Assembly: GCA_003604975.1 (NCBI GenBank)
Contig: QZIR01000017.1
Span: 1-64,000, forward strand
Reading direction: 5' to 3'
Source: Desulforudis sp.
GTDB lineage: Bacteria > Bacillota > Desulfotomaculia > Desulfotomaculales > Desulforudaceae
Length of the DNA: 64,000 nt
Part shown: positions 40,232 through 52,002 of the stretch, in pieces
How the letters are laid out: each line of letters starts with the position of its first letter
Position numbering within the stretch: position 1 is the stretch's first letter
Position numbers and translations under genes: made by a program
The notes under the pieces: model-generated
Database searches by the model: none
The model's input: the letters and a program-made list of their open reading frames with translations, nothing else
Told to the model about the DNA's origin: nothing

Positions 40232-40262
40232 GGGCGCCTCCGATGAGGACGCCCTTTTCTTT
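40232..40262 (+). terminator. Rho-independent terminator, convergent junction
   Basis: GGGCGCCTC pairs with GAGG(A)CGCCC around CGAT, followed by TTTTCTTT on the plus strand. It overlaps the end of hdrB, whose transcript comes from the other side. Confidence 0.75.
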
Positions 40263-41142
40263 ATTTCACGCCGTAAGCGGCGAGTTTGCTGCCGGGTGCC
40301 ACGATGTTATAGCTGAATCCCAGGTCCTTCGGCTTCAGGTCAAAGGCAACTCCCATGAGCTGTGTGATGAATAATACCGGCATGTCGTACTTCGTGCCAG
40401 TGACCTTGTTGATCTTCTTCTGGTACACGTCTGTGTTCATGTGGCACATCGGACACGGGGTCACGATTATGTCGGCGCCGGCCTGCGCCGCGCTTTCGAG
40501 AACTTTACCGGTGCAGTGATAGATCATATCCACCTTGGTAAACTGCTGGGAACCGCCGCAGCAACGGGCGGCCATGGGGAAGGGTACCGCCCTGGCACCA
40601 AGCGCTTCCACCACTTTATCCATCATCTGCGGGTATTCTACATCGTCAAAATCCCGACGGCGCAGAGCGCGCACTGTCTGGCAGCCCGAATAGCAGGCTA
40701 CTTTTAACCCGGTCAGCGGCTTGATGGTCCTGGCCTTGATCTTGTCGAGCCCGATATCATTGACCAGAACGTCGATCAGCTGGCGGACATTAAGCGTCAT
40801 GTTGTACTGCATATTGGCCGCGCCCAGGGCCTCGTTGATCTGGGCCGCGAATTCCGGTTCGAGCTTCATTCTCTCGTTGACCCAGGCCAGATTCAGGTAG
40901 CAGGAACTGCAGCCAACCAGCACGTCGTGTCCGGCCGATTCGGCCAGGGCCAGGTTCCGGGCGGCAATCGCCAGCTGCGGCAGGTCACCGACGTAGTTGG
41001 CGCTCACGGTCGCGCCGCAACAGTTCCAGTCCGGAATCTCGTGTGCGTCTAACTCAAGCGCTTTTTCGACGGCCTCAAAGGAGACTAGATAGGCTTTGCC
41101 CGTTGCCTCCATTGAGCAGCCGGGGTAAAAACTATACGCCAT
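40261..41142 (-). CDS. hdrB: HdrB-like subunit of the Qmo/Hdr module
   Basis: 293 residues with two CCG domains, the hallmark of heterodisulfide reductase subunit B: 'YPGCSMEATG', DWNCCGATV, VGCSSCYLN; then 'ACYSGCQTVRALRR', ARCCGGSQQF, TPCPMCHMN. These cysteines bind non-cubane [4Fe-4S] clusters where thiol chemistry occurs in HdrB. Here, as in other Gram-positive sulfate reducers, HdrCB replaces membrane subunit QmoC and links QmoAB to an electron source. Overlaps hdrC by 11 bases. Last gene of the operon. Confidence 0.92.
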   Translation of the reverse strand: MAYSFYPGCSMEATGKAYLVSFEAVEKALELDAHEIPDWNCCGATVSANYVGDLPQLAIAARNLALAESAGHDVLVGCSSCYLNLAWVNERMKLEPEFAAQINEALGAANMQYNMTLNVRQLIDVLVNDIGLDKIKARTIKPLTGLKVACYSGCQTVRALRRRDFDDVEYPQMMDKVVEALGARAVPFPMAARCCGGSQQFTKVDMIYHCTGKVLESAAQAGADIIVTPCPMCHMNTDVYQKKINKVTGTKYDMPVLFITQLMGVAFDLKPKDLGFSYNIVAPGSKLAAYGVK

Positions 41143-41731
41143 CCTTATGTGCCTCCTTCTGTATGGCCGCAGCCTTTTCGTAAATCTTCTTCAGATCCTT
41201 CAGGCCTTTAATCTTTTTCGGCGGAAACAGCGGCAGCCGCTTGTGCTTGATCATATCCAGACCGACGTCCTGTTGTTTCATCGCATCCGGAATGGAGCCG
41301 GGACCCAGCTTCATGTAGAAGGAGTTGGTCATTGCGGCTTCGTACACCCGGCCACGCTTCATGGCGCTCTGGAAGAACACCTTGGAGAGCAGTGCCACTC
41401 CCGACTTACACGACTTCTTGGCCAGTTCGTGTTTCAGGCCGTGCATTACATCAACAATCGGAATGCCACGTGGGCAGCGTACGGTACAAAGGTAGCACGA
41501 GGTACAGAGCCACGGGGTGTTGGCGTTCATTACCTTCTCTTTCTCTCCCGCGTGGATCATCTTGAACAGCCTACGCGGCGTGTAGTCCATCAGCTCGCGT
41601 GCTGGACAGGTGACGGCACACAGCCCGCACTGCATACACTGACTGGCGTACGCACCGTTTTCAATCGCGCGAAATTCGCGGTGAAAAGCCGGTTCGTACT
41701 TTGGAGTCGCCTGTTCTTTATCGGCGGACAT
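41132..41731 (-). CDS. hdrC: HdrC-like iron-sulfur subunit
   Basis: 199 residues with two [4Fe-4S] motifs, 'CMQCGLCAVTCPARELMDY' and 'CTSCYLCTVRCPRGIPIVD', and the HdrC helix 'TPRRLFKMIHAG'. It is soluble; QmoC, by contrast, is fused to a membrane cytochrome-like domain. HdrC hands electrons between HdrB and the flavin subunits. A 346-base spacer with three hairpins separates it from qmoB, and it overlaps hdrB. Confidence 0.92.
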   Translation of the reverse strand: MSADKEQATPKYEPAFHREFRAIENGAYASQCMQCGLCAVTCPARELMDYTPRRLFKMIHAGEKEKVMNANTPWLCTSCYLCTVRCPRGIPIVDVMHGLKHELAKKSCKSGVALLSKVFFQSAMKRGRVYEAAMTNSFYMKLGPGSIPDAMKQQDVGLDMIKHKRLPLFPPKKIKGLKDLKKIYEKAAAIQKEAHKDGV

Positions 41732-42077: not shown

Positions 42078-44306
42078 CTAGAAGCCCTTCATCGGGTTCG
42101 GGCCGAGTTCGGCCAGCCTCTCCGAGAAGCTGTCCAGAATCGACGGGATCTGGGTGTAGTCCATGATGCTGATCGCCTTAAAGCGCACCCGCTCGGATTC
42201 CAGGCCCAGGCGGTCGAGCGTTTCCGAAACCTTGGAGAGGCGGATCTCCGCCAACTCGCTGCCCTTCATGAAGTGGCACTGGTAATCGTCACCGTGTTTG
42301 CAACCTAAGAGTAACACGCCGTCAAACCCCTTGGACATGGCGTCCGAGATCCAGACCAGGTTCAGCGAGCCCAGGCAGCGGACCGGGATCACGCGGATCC
42401 AGGCGTTGTACTGCAGGCGGCCCAGACCGGCCATATCCAGTGCGGGGATGGCGTCGTTCTCGCAGGCGAAAATCAGGATTCTTGGTTTTTCATCTTCTTC
42501 ATCGGGGACTTCGACGGCCTTGGCCATGTTACCGATCATACCCACCGAGTAGTTCTTGAAGGAGATGATGCGCTCGGGGCAGGCGCCCATGCAGGTGCCG
42601 CACCTTCTACAGCGAGTGCGCTCGGGCAGCGGATTGCCCTTTTCGTCCTCGTTGATCGCGCCGAAGGGACATTCCTCGGTACAACGCTTGCACTGGGTGC
42701 AGCGCTGCATCGCGAACTCGGGATAGGACTCGTCACCGCTGCGCGGGTGTACGGCCTTACCGGCCGCACAGGCCTCGATACACTGGATGGCCTTCATGGC
42801 AGCGCCGGTGGCGTCTTCCATAGCCGCCGCCACGTGCATCGGGTTCCGAACCGTGCCCACCGGGTAGATACCGGTCCGGCGCGACTCGTACGGGAAGCAG
42901 ACGAAGTGTGAGTCCGGGAAGCCGTACTTCAGGGTCGGCAGTTCCGGACCCTGCCGATACTTCAGGTTTAGGAGGTCGGACTTCAAAATGACATCCTTCG
43001 GAATGTCATCTTCTTCTCCCTTCTCCTTGGCCGCAGCCGCTTCCGCCTCAGCTTCGGTCTGTCCAGGTTCTGTGCCGAAGGCCGTGGTCGGGACCATACC
43101 GTTGGCCAGCACGATGTAGTCGAGTCCCTGAACAGCCACCTTCTCACCCAGGATGGCGTCGTCGATCTCGACGGTTAACTTGCCGCTGGCGCCCACAATG
43201 TTCGCAACCTCACCCTTGATGAAGACGGTTCCGTCTGCCTGGACCTGCTTGTAAAGGTACTCGTACTTACCGACCGCCCGGAGGTCCTTGTAGAAGACAT
43301 AGGCCTGACCGGCCGGGTTCTGTTCCTTAAGGTAGCGGGCCTGCTTCAGGGATTCTACGCAACAGGCCGCAGAACAGTAGGAAAGGAAATGTACGTCACG
43401 GGAACCGGCACACTGGATAAAGCCGACCCGCTCTACGTCCTTGAGCTTACCGTCGATGGCCAGTTGCTCAAAGTCGGCCTGGTTAATCACCTGCGGGAAC
43501 TTGCCGTAGCCCAGGTGGCCCAGTTTTGCCGGGTCAAACGGTACGGAGCCGGTAGCCAGGATGACCGCGCCCGCGCGTTCATCCACCGTGCCGCCACCAC
43601 TCTTGATCTTGACGTCAAAGGTGCCCGGGCCGCCGGCAATGCTCTCCACCGTAGCCCCGGTGTACACCTTAATGTTCGGGTTGTCCTCAATCGCCTTGGT
43701 CAGCGCGGGTACCGGATTCTCAGGCAGTACATCGTAAGGCACTTTGGTCGGAGCGACCTTGTACATCTTCCCGACATAGCCGCCCAGGGCCGGTCCCTTC
43801 TCGACGATGACCGCTTTGTAACCCGCCTTGGCCGCTTCCATGGCTGCGGTCATACCGGCAATACCGCCACCAACCACCAGAACGTCCTTGGACAGGTTCT
43901 CCACCTGCCAGGGTTCCGGAAGCTCGGTAAGCTTCACCTTGGTCATTGCCATACGCAGTAGGTCCTCGGCCAGCATCTGTGTGTCTTCGTCATCAGCCGT
44001 GTGGCTCCAGGCCACCTGCTCACGGATGTTAACCCGGTCCACGATAACACCGGGGCCGAAACGGAACTCCTCGTACTTCACGCGTGAAGAACAGGCTGGA
44101 ATAACGATGGTGTTCACGCCGTCGGCGATATCGGCCTTGATCAGGTCTACGCCTTCCTTACTGCACAGGAAGGGATGATTCTTGCAGTTCTGCTGTTTGA
44201 ATTCACTCTTCACGACTTTGGCCAGGGCATCAACATCCAGCGCCCCACCTATGCCGCAGCCGGTGCAAATGTATACTCCCCACTTCTTATCCATTCTAGT
44301 TGCCAC
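42078..44306 (-). CDS. qmoB: QmoB (HdrA-MvhD-type flavoprotein)
   Basis: 742 residues. N-terminal HdrA-type Cys-rich part (CTGCGIG), FAD domain with 'DVLVVGGGIAGMTAAMEAAK', two [4Fe-4S] motifs ('CTQCKRCTEECPFGA', 'CRRCGTCMGACPE' near 550-590), then an MvhD-like C-terminal domain beginning 'ILIFACENDAIPALDMAG', as usual in QmoB. Qmo passes electrons to APS reductase; in enzymes with QmoC they come from the quinone pool, here probably through HdrCB. It overlaps qmoA by 11 bases. Confidence 0.93.
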   Translation of the reverse strand: MATRMDKKWGVYICTGCGIGGALDVDALAKVVKSEFKQQNCKNHPFLCSKEGVDLIKADIADGVNTIVIPACSSRVKYEEFRFGPGVIVDRVNIREQVAWSHTADDEDTQMLAEDLLRMAMTKVKLTELPEPWQVENLSKDVLVVGGGIAGMTAAMEAAKAGYKAVIVEKGPALGGYVGKMYKVAPTKVPYDVLPENPVPALTKAIEDNPNIKVYTGATVESIAGGPGTFDVKIKSGGGTVDERAGAVILATGSVPFDPAKLGHLGYGKFPQVINQADFEQLAIDGKLKDVERVGFIQCAGSRDVHFLSYCSAACCVESLKQARYLKEQNPAGQAYVFYKDLRAVGKYEYLYKQVQADGTVFIKGEVANIVGASGKLTVEIDDAILGEKVAVQGLDYIVLANGMVPTTAFGTEPGQTEAEAEAAAAKEKGEEDDIPKDVILKSDLLNLKYRQGPELPTLKYGFPDSHFVCFPYESRRTGIYPVGTVRNPMHVAAAMEDATGAAMKAIQCIEACAAGKAVHPRSGDESYPEFAMQRCTQCKRCTEECPFGAINEDEKGNPLPERTRCRRCGTCMGACPERIISFKNYSVGMIGNMAKAVEVPDEEDEKPRILIFACENDAIPALDMAGLGRLQYNAWIRVIPVRCLGSLNLVWISDAMSKGFDGVLLLGCKHGDDYQCHFMKGSELAEIRLSKVSETLDRLGLESERVRFKAISIMDYTQIPSILDSFSERLAELGPNPMKGF

Positions 44307-45555
44307 CCCCTACCGTACCCTGAATAGCCTGAAGTGCTGCAGCGGTAGCATCGCGAACGGATCCGGAGACCTCCGACGGTTTCTTGGCACAGCCGGCGCC
44401 GCTGATACCAACCTCAGCCGCGCTGGTAACGACAAAGCCATCCTTATCGGTCACATCAAAGCCTACCGGAACCCCGGTATCCCTGGTGGGCGGCGCCATG
44501 CCGGTCGCCAACACTACCAGGTCGGCCTGCTGCTTGATCACCTTGCCGGCATACTGATCCTCAACCTCAAGCTCGAGGGTACCCGAGGCATCCTCGGTGA
44601 TCTCGCCCACTTTACCTTTGATGAAGATCACGTTCTCGTCCTTCTGTACTCTTGCGTAGAAGTCCTCGTATTTACCCATCGCGCGGATGTCAATGTAGAA
44701 AACGTAAATCTTGGCATCTGGATACTGTTCGCGGATGTAGGTGGTCTGCTTCAGGGTAGCCATGCAGCAGACCTGCGAGCAGTAAGGCTGGTGGTTCTCG
44801 TCACGTGATCCGGCACACTGGACAAAGGCAATGGTTTCCGGCGCCTTGCCGTCTGACGGGCGCACAATCTTGCCGCCGGTCGGACCAGCCAGCACGGCCA
44901 TGCGCTCGAGCATCACGTTGGTAATCACGTTCTTGTTCCGGCCAAACCCGTAGTAACCAATCTTGGACGGGTCATAGGGGTTCCAACCGGTCGCCCATAC
45001 GATCGCGCCCACGTTCAGGCTGACCGTCTCCGGCTGCATGCCGAGGTCGATGGCCTTGTACTCACAGACCTCGAGGCACTTACCGCAGGACGCGCCCTGA
45101 CAAGCGACGGTATCGATCGTAAACTTTAGGGGGAAGGCAAACTGGTGCGGCAGGTTGGCTGCCTTGGTCTTGTCGAGACCATAGTTGAAAGCGTTGGGGA
45201 TCTCCACGGGGCAAACTTCGGTACACTTGCCGCAGGCCGTACAGTTAGCATTAATGAAAGTTGGGTTCAGCTTGACCTTAACGTCAAAATTCCCCTTTTG
45301 TCCGGAGATAGATTCCACTTCCGCAGAAGTATAAAACTTAATGCTTAGGTTTTCACGGAGCCGTTTGAAGTTGATTTCCAGTCCACAGTTCGGGGGGCAA
45401 AGTTTCGGGAAGTACTGGTGCAGCTGGGTGACCCGGCCACCCAGATAGGGGTTCTTCTCGACGATAACCACGTCGCGTCCCGCTTCGGCTGCTTCCAGTG
45501 CTGCCGAAAGACCACTGATTCCCCCCCCGACCACCAGGATCGTTTTGTTTGCCAT
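44296..45555 (-). CDS. qmoA: QmoA (HdrA-like flavoprotein)
   Basis: 419 residues from the ATG of MANKTILVVGGG. FAD-binding 'GGGISGLSAALEAAEAG', two iron-sulfur regions ('NCTACGKCTEVCPVEIPN', 'CQGASCGKCLEVCEYKAID') and the HdrA segment 'VQCAGSRDENHQPYCSQVCC'. QmoA is the flavin subunit thought to contact AprAB. It is shorter than archaeal HdrA, as normal for QmoA. The gene lies about 200 bases after aprA with a strong hairpin between. Confidence 0.93.
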   Translation of the reverse strand: MANKTILVVGGGISGLSAALEAAEAGRDVVIVEKNPYLGGRVTQLHQYFPKLCPPNCGLEINFKRLRENLSIKFYTSAEVESISGQKGNFDVKVKLNPTFINANCTACGKCTEVCPVEIPNAFNYGLDKTKAANLPHQFAFPLKFTIDTVACQGASCGKCLEVCEYKAIDLGMQPETVSLNVGAIVWATGWNPYDPSKIGYYGFGRNKNVITNVMLERMAVLAGPTGGKIVRPSDGKAPETIAFVQCAGSRDENHQPYCSQVCCMATLKQTTYIREQYPDAKIYVFYIDIRAMGKYEDFYARVQKDENVIFIKGKVGEITEDASGTLELEVEDQYAGKVIKQQADLVVLATGMAPPTRDTGVPVGFDVTDKDGFVVTSAAEVGISGAGCAKKPSEVSGSVRDATAAALQAIQGTVGGGN

Positions 45556-45709
45556 CTTTCCACACCCTATGTGCAATTTTAAATGCGTGGGAGGTCTTGG
45601 CTTCCGTCTCCAGCTGCCATCAGACCTCCTCAGCGTGCAATTCCTATGGATTCCGGACAGCCTGCAGGCGCATGGCGGTCACAGGCTGTATTTTGATTAA
45701 AGTAAACGG

Positions 45710-45757: not shown

Positions 45758-47629
45758 CTACAGTCTGATGATGGGCTTCTTGAAGACTTCCCAGCTGTCG
45801 TTGGCAGCATCGTACTTACAGTTGACAAACACTTCCCAGTTGTCGTCCAGGGCCGGTGTGTCAGAGCGGAAGTAGTAGCCGGGCCAGCGGGTCTCTTCAC
45901 GGAACAGCAGGCTTACCAGGTGTGACTCGGCCTGGAAAGTCCGGTGATAGTTCTCCCAAGCTCTCATGAGCTCGTGGAGGTCTCTCGCCGCCAGCTTGTC
46001 GGAGTCTTCCTTCAGCAGCTGCAGGTACTCGAGGCCCTTCTCCATAAGCGACTTGCTGGTCAGGAAGTTGGAGGTGTAGCCACCAGCGTACTCGTCCATA
46101 AGCTTCTGGAGACGGAACATGTACTGCTTCGGCAGGATGTAGTTGGGGTTAATTTCCGCAGTGGTGCCGTAGCCACCAAACTCTTCGAAACGCGCCATCG
46201 GGGCCACGATCTTCGCCTTGATCGCCTCGACGGTAGCGGGATCCACGTTCGGGAGTTCAGGGTTCTCAAGGGCGTACTTGCAAATCCACTTACCGGCGAT
46301 GCGGCCTTCCGCGTGGGAGCCGGAGGAGAACTTGTGCGAGGAGGCGCCGGAGGCGTCACCCGCGGCAAACAGGCCCTTGACGGTGGTCATATTGGCATAG
46401 CCCCAGAAGTACTCGTCCGGAGCGATGTCAGGCGAACCACTGACCCAGGCGCCGGAGGCACCGGAGTGCGAACCGATGAAGTAAGGCTCAGCAGCAGCGA
46501 TCTCGGAGGCCTTCTTCTCAGGCTCGATGTCGCAGGCCGCCCACAGGAGGGCCTGGGCAATCGTCATGTCGAGGAAGTCTTCCCAAGCTTCCGCTTCGAG
46601 ATGCTTCATCTTCTTCTTGAAGGCCTTCTCGTCGCCTTCGTACTTCTTCGCGAGGTTCTGGATGGCTTCCGCGGTCTGCATGTAGATCGGGCCCTTACCG
46701 GCGGAGACGTCCATCATACCGAGCCAGTTACGCAGGTTGGCGGGGATCGGCTTCACAGCACCGAAGCGGCCCCACTTCGCCAGCTCGTCTCTGTTGGTGA
46801 CCATGTACACTTCGCCATCAGCGTTCGTGGCGGTGGACTTGAAAAGCAGGAACCAGGCGCCGACCGGGCCGTAGGCATCCTTGAAGCGGACCGGGATGAA
46901 GCGCACTTCCTGGCAGGTCATTTCGGCGCCAGCCTTGATGGTGAAGTAGGCGCTGGAACCGGTCGAGAACGGCGGGTACCAGGAACGGCCGAGACCTTCA
47001 CCATTGGACCGGGGACGGAACACGCCGACGGTACCGCCCATCGCGCAGAGGACGGCCTTCGCGCGGAACACGTAAATCTTGTTTTCACGGGTGCTAAAGC
47101 CAACCGCGCCGGCGATTCTGTCGCCATCCAGCAGAGGCTCAACGATGAAGACGCGCTCGTAGATGTTCTCGGTGCCGAGGGCGTTCTTCGCAGCTTCCGC
47201 GACGATGATCTTGTAGGATTCACCGTTGATCATGAGCTGCCAGCGGCCGCTCTCACGCAGATAGGAGCCATCTTCCGCTTTCCAGATCGGGAGGCCCCAC
47301 TTCTCAAACAGGTGCACGGTAGAGTCAACGTGACGGGCAATGTCGTATACCAGGTCGTCGCGGGCGATGCCCATCAGGTCGTTACGGACGTACTCGACGT
47401 AGTCCATGCAGGTGTTCTGGCCTTCGGCCAGACCGAGGTACAGGTTGATCGCGGAGAGACCCATCGCCACGGCGCCGCTTCTGTCCATGGCAGCCTTGTC
47501 AACGAGGGTTACCTTAAGTCCGTGTTTCTTGGCCCAGTGCGCAGCTTCTACAGCGGCGCCGCAGTTAGCCATACCACCACCGATAAGTAGCACATCAGTA
47601 GTGACTTCTACAGTTTCAAAGTTCGGCAT
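45758..47629 (-). CDS. aprA: Adenylylsulfate (APS) reductase alpha subunit
   Basis: 623 residues. Flavoprotein of the fumarate reductase fold that reduces APS to sulfite plus AMP in the cytoplasm. FAD site is 'LLIGGGMANCGAAVEAA'. By-eye equivalents of the substrate-site residues known from the Archaeoglobus enzyme are Asn62, Glu137 (INGESYK), Trp217 (RSWYPPF), Arg248 (IPVRFKDAYG) and His388 (GSHSGASGAW), all present. It follows aprB by 21 bases and precedes qmoAB. Confidence 0.97.
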   Translation of the reverse strand: MPNFETVEVTTDVLLIGGGMANCGAAVEAAHWAKKHGLKVTLVDKAAMDRSGAVAMGLSAINLYLGLAEGQNTCMDYVEYVRNDLMGIARDDLVYDIARHVDSTVHLFEKWGLPIWKAEDGSYLRESGRWQLMINGESYKIIVAEAAKNALGTENIYERVFIVEPLLDGDRIAGAVGFSTRENKIYVFRAKAVLCAMGGTVGVFRPRSNGEGLGRSWYPPFSTGSSAYFTIKAGAEMTCQEVRFIPVRFKDAYGPVGAWFLLFKSTATNADGEVYMVTNRDELAKWGRFGAVKPIPANLRNWLGMMDVSAGKGPIYMQTAEAIQNLAKKYEGDEKAFKKKMKHLEAEAWEDFLDMTIAQALLWAACDIEPEKKASEIAAAEPYFIGSHSGASGAWVSGSPDIAPDEYFWGYANMTTVKGLFAAGDASGASSHKFSSGSHAEGRIAGKWICKYALENPELPNVDPATVEAIKAKIVAPMARFEEFGGYGTTAEINPNYILPKQYMFRLQKLMDEYAGGYTSNFLTSKSLMEKGLEYLQLLKEDSDKLAARDLHELMRAWENYHRTFQAESHLVSLLFREETRWPGYYFRSDTPALDDNWEVFVNCKYDAANDSWEVFKKPIIRL

Positions 47630-47650: not shown

Positions 47651-48106
47651 TTATTTAAGTTTCGGAACATCCGCGCCGGTGCCCAGGAAGTCCAGCGAAG
47701 CGGGCTCGGTGAACAGGTAGGTCGGGTTGTTGATGTCATCTACACCTGCACCATATCCGCCGTCCGGAACAGCAGAACCTTCGTCGTTGGTCCGGATGGG
47801 GAACTTAAAGCGCTTCAAGACACCGTTTCTGAACTTAACGGTCCACATGATGTCCTGGGAGCCACGAAGCGGTACACAGCTGGCGCCCATCGGTACGAAG
47901 TCGGCATAGCCTCTGAGGTCAATGGCCTGCTGCGGGCAGATCTTGGCGCAGCACAGGCATTCCCAGCAAGCATCGTATTCCTGGTTGTAAGCCTTCATTC
48001 TGTCTTTGTCGAGCTTCATCAGGTCGTTCGGGCAGATGTACATACAAGCAGTTTTGTCCTGCCCCTTGCAGCCGTCGCACTTCTCCGAGATTACAAATGC
48101 CGGCAT
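47651..48106 (-). CDS. aprB: APS reductase beta subunit
   Basis: 151-residue ferredoxin-like subunit with two [4Fe-4S] clusters: 'CDGCKGQDKTACMYICPND' and 'CWECLCCAKICPQQAID', then a beta sheet and a long C-terminal tail (about 105-151) that in known structures wraps AprA. ATG with TTAGGAGG seven bases upstream. First gene of the operon; the 900-base region before it should contain the promoter. Confidence 0.97.
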   Translation of the reverse strand: MPAFVISEKCDGCKGQDKTACMYICPNDLMKLDKDRMKAYNQEYDACWECLCCAKICPQQAIDLRGYADFVPMGASCVPLRGSQDIMWTVKFRNGVLKRFKFPIRTNDEGSAVPDGGYGAGVDDINNPTYLFTEPASLDFLGTGADVPKLK

Positions 48107-48983: not shown

Positions 48984-49010
48984 TTGAACCTTAAACAGGA
49001 GGTAGTAACA

Positions 49011-49346
49011 GTGTCTCAGGAAGTGATGACCAAGGCTGCCGAGTTGGGCCGGGCAATCAGCGAATCACCCGAGTCGCAACTTGTAAGAGAGCGTCAGCAG
49101 AAAATGTTCGATAATACCGAAGCCCTGGAAATGCTCAAGACCTTCCAGATGATGCAGAACCAGTGCCGCTTGAAGCAGGAGAAAGGCGAGGAAGTGACCG
49201 CGGACGAGGTTAAGGCCCTGGAACAGATGGAGCTCAAGATGCAGGAACACCGTCTCATCCGTGAGTTTTTTGAAGCTCAGAACGCGCTGCAGGAGATGCT
49301 GAAAAAGGCAATGCAGATCGTGGTACGGTACGACAAGGAAACCTAG
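49011..49346 (+). CDS. YlbF/YmcA-family protein
   Basis: 111 residues from the GTG at 49011, which has AGGAGGTAG in front; an in-frame TTG at 48984 lacks one. All-helical, with the family pattern 'AAELGRAISESPESQLVRER' and 'FQMMQNQCRLKQEKGEEV'. In Bacillus, YlbF, YmcA and YaaT form a complex that helps RNase Y mature mRNAs and promotes sporulation and competence. The gene stands alone between aprB and the apr-like pair, with its own terminator. Confidence 0.82.
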   Translation: MSQEVMTKAAELGRAISESPESQLVRERQQKMFDNTEALEMLKTFQMMQNQCRLKQEKGEEVTADEVKALEQMELKMQEHRLIREFFEAQNALQEMLKKAMQIVVRYDKET

Positions 49347-49492: not shown

Positions 49493-49831
49493 CTATTCTT
49501 CTTCCTCGTCCCCGGCCAGCGTCTTCATCACGAAACGCTCCACGTTCCCACGGCAGTCGATCAACGTCCAGGTCACACTGTGCGTACCGACTAACGGAAT
49601 TAGCTTGCCGGGAAAGAAAGCGACCTGGTACTGCAACCGGGTCTGGATCGCCTGTCGCGGACAGGCCTTGGTGCAGCTCATGCAGTCCCAGCAGTCGCCC
49701 ACGTTTCGGCATACAGCCTTGTTGACGGACCGGTCGAGCATCATCAGGTCGCCCGGACAAACCTGTTCGCACAAGGGCTCACCCTCACCCTGACAACCGT
49801 CGCATTTGTCGGGTATTACCATTGGCGGCAT
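49493..49831 (-). CDS. AprB-like ferredoxin, shortened tail
   Basis: 112 residues, paralogous to AprB. Both cluster motifs are kept: Cys10, 13, 21, 25 ('CDGCQGEGEPLCEQVCPGD') and Cys47, 50, 53, 57 (CWDCMSCTKACP), including the Trp of CWDC. It lacks about 40 residues of the AprB C-terminal tail and ends in acidic DEEEE. ATG after AGGGGGG. It lies downstream of the AprA-like gene, the reverse of the normal aprBA order, with 231 bases between. Confidence 0.88.
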   Translation of the reverse strand: MPPMVIPDKCDGCQGEGEPLCEQVCPGDLMMLDRSVNKAVCRNVGDCWDCMSCTKACPRQAIQTRLQYQVAFFPGKLIPLVGTHSVTWTLIDCRGNVERFVMKTLAGDEEEE

Positions 49832-49958
49832 TGAATCGTCCCCCCTCTTGTAGAAATCAGTAAACTCTACCGCTTAGGGATGTGTGAGGTGAGAGGTTAG
49901 AGGTTCGATACTTGAAGGAATTCGCACGGCGAATTCCACCCCATAATCTCACTTCCAG

Positions 49959-49972
49959 CTTCTCACTTCTCA
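49959..49972. repeat. TGAGAAG tandem repeat, copy downstream of aprA-like
   Basis: CTTCTCACTTCTCA, the reverse complement of the TGAGAAGTGAGAAG found at 51966-51979. More seven-base-periodic sequence lies at 49884-49912. The two copies flank the AprA-like gene in inverted orientation. Confidence 0.6.
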
Positions 49973-49997
49973 CCTCTCAGTCGCCTTCCGCGCCCTG

Positions 49998-50043
49998 CTT
50001 GTCCTCGTAGAGGGCTCGTTTCTGAACCCTCTGCGAGGACAAG
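49998..50043. repeat. 17-bp hairpin between aprA-like and aprB-like
   Basis: The arms 49998-50014 and 50027-50043 (CTTGTCCTCG... and ...CGAGGACAAG) pair with one T-G position around 12 bases. It lies 20 bases after the AprA-like stop, without a U-run. It may stabilise or process the message. A 9-bp inverted repeat GGAATTCGC/GCGAATTCC lies in the same spacer at 49918-49938. Confidence 0.75.
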
Positions 50044-50062
50044 TGCTCTCCAGACTTATTTC

Positions 50063-51838
50063 TTAAATGGACTCCTCGTTCCGATCACCCGGCACGATCT
50101 GCTCGTACGCCTCCTTATCGAAGGTAAGCTCGTCGGTTTCAGGATCCCAGACCGAGGTAATGAAACAATCGAAGTTCTCGTTGTCCACGTTCGGATAATC
50201 CGTCCGGTTCACGTAACCGGGGTAGCGGGTCTCCTTCCGGTAGTTAATCTGTTCAATGACCAACTGGCAGACGTCGAGTCGGTTGATGACATCCCAGGCC
50301 AGCTGCAGGTCATGCAGATCCTTGGCCACCAGGTATTTCAGCTGGTCGTGGCGCATCCGGTTAATCAGCTTACGCGCCATCGACAGATAGGATTCGCTGA
50401 CGTGGAACCAGCGGGAACGACCGCCGCAATATTCCTCCATTATAAACTGCATCCGCCATTCCATCTCTTCCGGGATAATCCCCTCGATCGGTTTGCCGTT
50501 GGTGTAGAAGGTGCACTTCTGATAGCGCTCAAGCGGCTCGAAGGTACGCACCTCCAGGCGGTCAAGCTCATCAGGATCAATCTCCAGCAACTGTGGATCA
50601 ACCCGTTCGATGTAATAGAGAATGGACCGTGCCGCAAGGCGGCCGCAGGTCCAGGTGCCGGAAATAAAGCGTGATGGTGCGGCGCCGAGGGCGTCCCCCG
50701 ACACAAAGAGCCGTTCAATGGTGGTCATCCGTGACGTGCCAATCGTCCAGGCCCCCGACAGGCCGGCGTGCGAACCTACTAGTGACGGGTCGGCGGCATC
50801 GATCTCAACCGGGTCCATCGACGGATTGATGTCATTGCAGCCCCAGTACAGAACCAGGCAGGGAGACATGTCCAGATACTGGCCCTTGAGCCCGGCCACG
50901 CGTTCCGGATCACCCCGCCTGGTATCCATCATGATCGGGCCCCTGTGATTCAGGGTCTCCTGACATAGGGCCCAGGCCCGGATCGGTGTAGGCGCCGTGT
51001 GACCGCCGAGCTTCACGTACTCTGGCCGCTCACGCATAAACGCTTCGCCCAGAGAGTTGATCATCGGCGCGCCCATTCCGATGGCCAGGGTACCGGTAGG
51101 ACTGTATGTATCCTTGGTACGGACCGGGACCAGACGGTGGTCGAAGCCGACCATTTTCGCCCCTGCCCGCTTGCACATCGCATATGCCCCGCCCGCATTG
51201 AACGGGAAATACCAGATGCGGTGGTGCGCATCGTCGTGCCCAAGGGGTCTCCAGAGACCGGCACACCCGCCGGCGGCCAGTAACACGGCCTTGCCGCGGG
51301 CGATGTAGAACTTGCCGTCGCGGACGCCAAAACCGACACAGCCGGCGACCTTGCCGCCAATTTTAATCAGCTCGGTTACGAATACCCGGTTATAGATCTC
51401 GGCTCCGGCCTGCATCGCCATGCTCGCCGTGACCGGCTTCAGCAGGGAGCCATTGATCTCAACATTCCACTTCCCGCGGTTGAGGTAACGGCCGTCCGGC
51501 TTCTTTTTGATCGGGAGACCCTCCGCTTCCAGCAGGGCCACCGTTTCGTTCACCAGTTCTGCCACGCTCATGATAATATCCTCACGAATCGGTGCCCCGC
51601 ACATATCGTACCGGGCGTAGGACACGTAATCTTGAGGCGTACCCTGGTTGATGTACATGTTCAGAGCGTTCATTCCGGCCGACAAGCAACCACTGTTACG
51701 AATAAAGGCCTTTTCCAGAATGACAATTTTGAGGTCCCTGCCGCCGCGCTGTCGTGCCTCCCAGGCCGCCAGGCAGCCCGCCGTGCCGCCTCCGATGATC
51801 AGTAAATCGGCATCAATGTATACCCTTTCCCTGGCCAC
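50063..51838 (-). CDS. AprA-like flavoprotein, divergent paralogue
   Basis: 591 residues from the GTG at 51838 (GGGGAGGGG upstream). Related to AprA along its length: FAD site 'DLLIIGGGTAGCLAAWEARQ', and by eye Asn60, Trp209 (RIWYFPF), Arg240 (LVPVRTKDTY) and His357 (VGSHAGLSGAW) match the APS-site residues. The Glu in AprA INGESYK is replaced (INGSLLKP), and 'GPVGAWFLLF' becomes 'SPTGTLAIGM'. It also lacks the AprA insert near 320-350. Probably a redox flavoenzyme with a related but different substrate, partnered by the AprB-like ferredoxin. Confidence 0.85.
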   Translation of the reverse strand: MARERVYIDADLLIIGGGTAGCLAAWEARQRGGRDLKIVILEKAFIRNSGCLSAGMNALNMYINQGTPQDYVSYARYDMCGAPIREDIIMSVAELVNETVALLEAEGLPIKKKPDGRYLNRGKWNVEINGSLLKPVTASMAMQAGAEIYNRVFVTELIKIGGKVAGCVGFGVRDGKFYIARGKAVLLAAGGCAGLWRPLGHDDAHHRIWYFPFNAGGAYAMCKRAGAKMVGFDHRLVPVRTKDTYSPTGTLAIGMGAPMINSLGEAFMRERPEYVKLGGHTAPTPIRAWALCQETLNHRGPIMMDTRRGDPERVAGLKGQYLDMSPCLVLYWGCNDINPSMDPVEIDAADPSLVGSHAGLSGAWTIGTSRMTTIERLFVSGDALGAAPSRFISGTWTCGRLAARSILYYIERVDPQLLEIDPDELDRLEVRTFEPLERYQKCTFYTNGKPIEGIIPEEMEWRMQFIMEEYCGGRSRWFHVSESYLSMARKLINRMRHDQLKYLVAKDLHDLQLAWDVINRLDVCQLVIEQINYRKETRYPGYVNRTDYPNVDNENFDCFITSVWDPETDELTFDKEAYEQIVPGDRNEESI

Positions 51839-51911: not shown

Positions 51912-52002
51912 ATTGTATTTTTCTATTAATGGGAATTCAACAGGCATCCCCTGATTCCTGCAAAATGAGAAGTGAGAAGTGAGATTGGTGCCGTTTTGCA
52001 GT

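Follow-up and report, generated by a model that had tools for sequence, protein, structure and literature searches.

A second AprA/AprB-like gene pair lies beside the canonical aprBA genes in the 64,000-nucleotide stretch of Desulforudis sp. DNA analysed here (the window), and its AprA-like protein belongs to a separate clade of AprA homologues, clade X. We put the chance at about even that this pair, AprA2B2, is an alternative APS reductase that receives its electrons by a route other than Qmo. This reading draws on sequence homology, conserved residues, the linkage and co-occurrence of genes, and selection; substrate, direction, electron donor and role are inferred. Judged by its anatomy and genomic context, the pair looks more like a working adenylyl-sulfate reductase of its own type than like a duplicate or a relic.

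Position and class of the second pair

Both genes were found as open reading frames on the minus strand, with the places and sizes of the original prediction, upstream of the canonical apr and qmo genes:

50063–51838, minus strand: AprA-like FAD subunit, clade X, 591 aa (ORF, profile search, alignment, tree)
49832–50062, no strand: spacer between the AprA-like and AprB-like genes, a dispersed genomic repeat plus hairpin (comparison with relatives)
49493–49831, minus strand: AprB-like 2x[4Fe-4S] subunit, clade X, 112 aa, acidic end (ORF, profile search, alignment)
47651–48106, minus strand: canonical aprB (above the TIGR02060 cut-off, PF12139 tail present)
45758–47629, minus strand: canonical aprA (above the TIGR02061 cut-off)
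44296–45576, minus strand: qmoA-like, HdrA-type flavoprotein (D. reducens gene order, PMC4759654, and inspection)
42078–44306, minus strand: qmoB-like (same basis)
41132–41731, minus strand: hdrC-like (same basis)
40261–41142, minus strand: hdrB-like (same basis)

The minus-strand order is AprA-like, AprB-like, aprB, aprA, qmoA, qmoB, hdrC, hdrB. The two pairs lie closer together than the 3 kb first estimated: 1.4 kb separates the AprB-like gene from aprB, and 2.4 kb the AprA-like gene from aprA. The AprA-like gene starts at an ATG, and an upstream TTG would yield 599 aa. Between both apr pairs, on the opposite strand, is a YlbF/YmcA-like gene (48984–49346) whose position is kept in other family members.

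The A-B gene order, the reverse of aprBA, was read correctly from the window and recurs in 22/22 clade X relatives. The spacer, described as rich in inverted repeats, does contain them but is not a conserved part of the pair: positions 49860–50062 are a dispersed repeat that includes the inverted repeats and recurs as 14 further partial copies elsewhere in the genome, and the A-B spacer ranges from 17 to 266 bp among clade X relatives. Since it is not conserved in relatives, the spacer is probably no working part of the locus; as a functional element it was rejected because of its dispersed, length-variable nature. A stretch resembling this repeat (GAGAAGTGAGAAGTGAG) also occurs near 51965.

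Profile scores set the two pairs apart. The canonical AprA (883 bits) and AprB (193 bits) exceed the curated NCBIfam cut-offs, while the AprA-like protein falls below that for AprA (TIGR02061; 440 vs 641.75 bits) and the AprB-like protein below that for AprB (TIGR02060; 86.8 vs 135.65 bits). The best NCBIfam match of the AprA-like protein, NF005331 (PRK06854), reaches 504.7 bits, below its 557-bit cut-off. Identity to the window's canonical proteins is 35% for AprA and 38% for AprB, and the 35% identity together with the trees described below rules out a plain duplicate of aprBA. The original prediction allowed that the protein might instead be a fumarate reductase, with no link to Apr; the score against the fumarate reductase/succinate dehydrogenase flavoprotein family TIGR01812 (73 bits vs a cut-off of 567) and the fold ranking rule this out, the top Foldseek ranks for an AlphaFold model with a pLDDT of 73 (several pocket segments below 50) being 1jnr/2fja and 8a8o.

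Distribution, phylogeny and gene neighbourhoods of clade X

Searching 113 genomes of the class recovered clade X in 22, which fall into five family groups and without exception carry A and B as a pair, with AprA identities of 63–100% (92% for the nearest named record, L020). Below clade X, identity falls sharply in this search, to 40–44% for a group that we call T and 35–39% for canonical AprA. Outside the class, a 399-genome phylum sample held no member, the best other matches being 44–47% identical. Maximum-likelihood trees set off X, canonical AprA (C), T and the PAPS-reductase group (PAPSR) each by a 100/100 branch, and X stayed intact at 100/100 when 20 phylum sequences were added. With the root placed on the canonical branch (the tree contains no outgroup), X is sister to a larger clade made up of T, PAPSR and a further group, U. 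AprA2B2 would have arisen not from the neighbouring aprBA but on the side of the AprA tree that holds PAPS-reducing and probable assimilatory AprA-like enzymes.

A clade of its own outside ordinary AprA had been proposed as the result to look for, and the tree bears this out; in the sampled class, clade X was seen nowhere but alongside canonical apr. Canonical apr genes occur in 22/22 X genomes (aprA itself was found in 21, and in the 22nd the contig ends inside apr), a co-occurrence with canonical aprA of hypergeometric p about 1e-4 if genomes are counted as independent of kinship. Judged from sequence, clade X is separate from aprBA, and all of its members in this sample belong to Gram-positive sulfate reducers. 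We found no earlier description of it among open-access papers. Divergent AprA-like paralogues have been reported from archaeal genomes without typical AprA residues or linkage to sulfate reduction (PMC7174415); compared by description, these too lie outside canonical AprA, whereas X largely keeps both the residues and the linkage.

Pairwise comparison of the window's AprA-X with its nearest relative gives a dN/dS of 0.047, and clade X AprA is under strong purifying selection. Its neighbourhoods differ among families. In f1 and f14 X adjoins aprBA (the contigs of G003 are too short to show this); the linkage is lost in f2 and f3, with X located elsewhere in f2. X follows an lgt-like gene (by inspection) in f1 and several f2 genomes, with molybdenum-cofactor-type genes beyond; in G001 it is cleanly absent between the lgt-like gene and aprB.

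The adenylyl-sulfate pocket and the likely substrate

Pocket positions are given in A. fulgidus numbering, with residue roles as described for that enzyme: Asn74, Trp234, Arg265 and His398 around the sulfate, Arg317 as adenine clamp, and Tyr95, Trp144 and Gly274 in the channel (PMC2211403). What had been noted by eye about this site held up on alignment. The window's AprA-like protein keeps Asn74, Trp234, Arg265 and His398, has Ser in place of Glu151 of the INGESYK motif, and carries SPTGTLAIGM in place of GPVGAWFLLF; the AprA-only inserts that it lacks are several short ones, the largest of about 14 columns. Across clade X, Asn74, Trp234, Arg265, Arg317, Tyr95, Trp144 and Gly274 are invariant (22/22), and position 151 is Ser, Arg or Ala. 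His398 is kept in 20/22 members; it is Asn (AAC) in L008 and L009, from two related genomes including the single-contig G004, and the sister L011 keeps His.

Relative to canonical AprA, clade X has six fixed pocket changes (E141R, Q143K, Q145N, L278I, D361Q and H446S), any of which could alter specificity, and 33 residues unique to it. The conserved channel that includes Gln145, Leu278, His446 and Asp361 is incomplete, with N, I, S and Q fixed at these positions. The lost inserts, the absent AprB tail and the changed GPVG motif also occur in other non-canonical AprA-like groups and are therefore not peculiar to this pair. Compared with AprBA (A. fulgidus 1JNR/2FJA), X shares the fold, the two-cluster AprB, Asn74/Trp234/Arg265/Arg317/His398, Trp-B48 and, in several families, a genomic link to sat/qmo; it differs in its 35–38% identity, scores below curated cut-offs, tail-less AprB, A-B order, six fixed pocket changes and separate clade.

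The suggested use of another adenylyl- or sulfo-compound stays a conjecture. X retains those residues of the APS site that bind the sulfate and clamp the adenine, which makes APS itself its likeliest, and also its most economical, substrate. A minority possibility, to which we give some weight, is that the pair serves as a reductase or dehydrogenase of something else: a modified adenylyl-sulfate, some other sulfo-nucleotide, an organosulfonate or, like the fumarate-reductase relatives, a carboxylate. The six fixed substitutions and 33 X-only residues point that way, as does sister group T, annotated as APS reductase and typically found beside a DASS transporter: 5/6 of the sampled T genomes outside the class have neither a PF01747 ATP sulfurylase nor APS kinase by our search, which indicates that enzymes of this superfamily are able to move away from APS. 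Against this possibility, X occurs solely in sulfate reducers that have canonical apr genes, and it retains Gly274, Tyr95, Arg317 and the sulfate-binding set, some of the pocket positions being changed in T (Y95W, G274D, F261W).

The counts of genomes with ATP sulfurylase or APS kinase are small and include related genomes, and PF01747 is blind to CysND-type enzymes; several of the genomes examined for ATP sulfurylase gave CysD-like matches below the cut-off. The annotation of T as adenylyl-sulfate reductase is doubtful, because several T-bearing Bacillota gave no PF01747 ATP sulfurylase. One T pair, a third AprA/AprB-like pair in the window's own genome (L004, G000:C46, 133–6353), shares its operon with genes for a DASS anion transporter and for HdrA-like and HdrC-like proteins, and many T relatives have a Crp/Fnr-type regulator gene upstream.

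Groups U and T together make up the Bacillota family NF005331 (PRK06854), 'adenylyl-sulfate reductase subunit alpha'; X lies below its 557-bit cut-off, is 40–47% identical to it and forms a sister clade. U shares most pocket residues with X, to near identity, including an X-like Trp-Asn at 144–145. ATP sulfurylase is present in 6/7 U genomes vs 80/399 in the phylum sample (Fisher p 3e-4) and APS kinase in 2/7, making U a candidate group of assimilatory flavin-type APS reductases, mostly with ATP sulfurylase and without APS kinase. Given the near-identical pocket, we count this pattern in favour of APS reduction by X. Elsewhere in the phylum its members (L105, L106, L107, L108, L112, L114, L116) occur in unrelated contexts, for example beside guaA.

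An assimilatory PAPS reductase like the Methanothermococcus thermolithotrophicus enzyme (MtPAPSR; 8A8O; PMC10322725) appears very unlikely. By sequence the best PDB match of the AprA-like protein is 8a8o, the alpha subunit of that enzyme, ahead of A. fulgidus APS reductase, and X and MtPAPSR share the lack of canonical AprA inserts, a tail-less AprB, the SPTGT motif, an Arg and a Lys within the 118–122 loop and, in relatives, the A-B order. Gln145 is said to clash with the 3'-phosphate, and Lys120, Arg121 and Ser122 have been proposed to hold PAPS (PMC10322725); Lys120 and an Arg at the Glu141 position are common to both, and Gln145 is replaced in X. Positions 120–122 of X, however, are Lys, Trp and Asn, so that Arg121 and Ser122 are absent, and Ile stands at position 278, where the PAPSR group has Gln throughout (with Arg at 144). 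X is 39–40% identical to MtPAPSR, lies outside the PAPSR clade and has another gene context. APS kinase was detected in 7/9 PAPSR-type genomes and in the window's own genome (one copy), but not in 14/22 X genomes, among them G004, assembled as one contig, and G008, assembled as two. PAPS is hence not the usual substrate in these 14, and the missing kinase together with the lacking PAPS-pocket residues makes it unlikely for X as a whole and rules it out as the main reading. The PAPSR-like AprA genes of L087 and L124 adjoin CysD-like genes, and no APS kinase was found in those genomes (one of them 77% complete).

Electron partners and the proposed role of AprA2B2

As predicted, AprB-X keeps all eight cluster cysteines and lacks the tail that clamps AprA (PF12139 absent); it also retains the electron-relay Trp-B48, and its C-terminus is acidic in most members. 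The proposal of a regulatory or accessory Apr is disfavoured, as strong purifying selection keeps the flavin-site residues, the cluster cysteines and Trp-B48 in place. A non-catalytic paralogue, whether regulatory or decaying, is improbable to a high degree: His398Asn in two genomes and the clean absence from G001 would fit it, and the low dN/dS, together with unbroken ORFs and cofactor residues that are conserved throughout the 22 genomes of five families, argues against it.

A loop of AprB has been proposed to dock Qmo (PMC2211403). This loop reads KGQDK in all complete canonical AprB examined here and is altered in X. Family f5, to which Desulfocucumis palustris L028 belongs, has an operon that runs AprA-X, AprB-X, an HdrA-like protein of 793 aa, sat, aprB, aprA and qmoA. 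These two features, the altered loop and the relatives' own HdrA, make it doubtful that the pair uses the same Qmo/Hdr chain, as had been supposed. At E 1e-140 no f5-type HdrA-like partner was found in families f1, f2 and f3, which speaks against a dedicated HdrA in every X genome and leaves the clade without a recognised donor common to all families. Selenocysteine in the HdrA of f9 genomes was considered and rejected, the TGA being a normal stop.

In our favoured reading, an alternative APS reductase, AprA2B2 would bind APS made by Sat, N5 of the reduced FAD would attack the sulfur, and AMP and sulfite would be released. Electrons would pass through both AprB2 clusters and Trp48 from a donor whose docking is probably unlike that of Qmo on canonical AprB: in the Desulfocucumis-type family an HdrA-like protein dedicated to it, and perhaps ferredoxin or an Hdr/Qmo-type protein elsewhere. 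Counting against this, canonical aprBA is present in every X genome, and a second APS reductase seems redundant. The fixed pocket changes, the Asn at position 398 in two genomes, the failure to find the HdrA-like partner in f1, f2 and f3, and the lost linkage to aprBA in f2 and f3 weigh on the same side.

The same isoenzyme running in reverse, as an AMP-dependent sulfite oxidase for sulfite detoxification or for sulfur/thiosulfate disproportionation, is distinctly unlikely in our view. AprBA chemistry is reversible (PMC2211403), and in L064 and L061 a gene for a TauE/SafE-like permease (weak PRK10621 match) is found adjacent or close to X; genes for sulfite export or oxidation are not consistently linked to X, however, canonical AprBA could do likewise, and direction is not a property that sequence displays.

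The finding bears on how genes of this kind are catalogued, as surveys based on aprA, like automatic annotation, lump together at least five different AprA-type groups, among them T, found in several genomes with no detected ATP sulfurylase. It also concerns energy metabolism. QmoC is reportedly missing from Gram-positive sulfate reducers (D. reducens, PMC4759654; also PMC10504309), and X bears both on electron delivery to APS reductase and on energy saving in these organisms: deep-subsurface and thermophilic lineages have a conserved second AprAB-like enzyme, with sat, aprBA and the gene of an HdrA-like protein as neighbours. A more ambitious and rather unlikely interpretation is that X is a third AprAB type besides the APS and PAPS reductases, specific to sulfate reducers, with a remodelled adenylyl-sulfate pocket and a coupling, made in some hosts by an HdrA of its own, to electron bifurcation or confurcation of the flavin-based kind. 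If so, Gram-positive sulfate reducers would possess two energetically different routes for reducing APS or a related compound.
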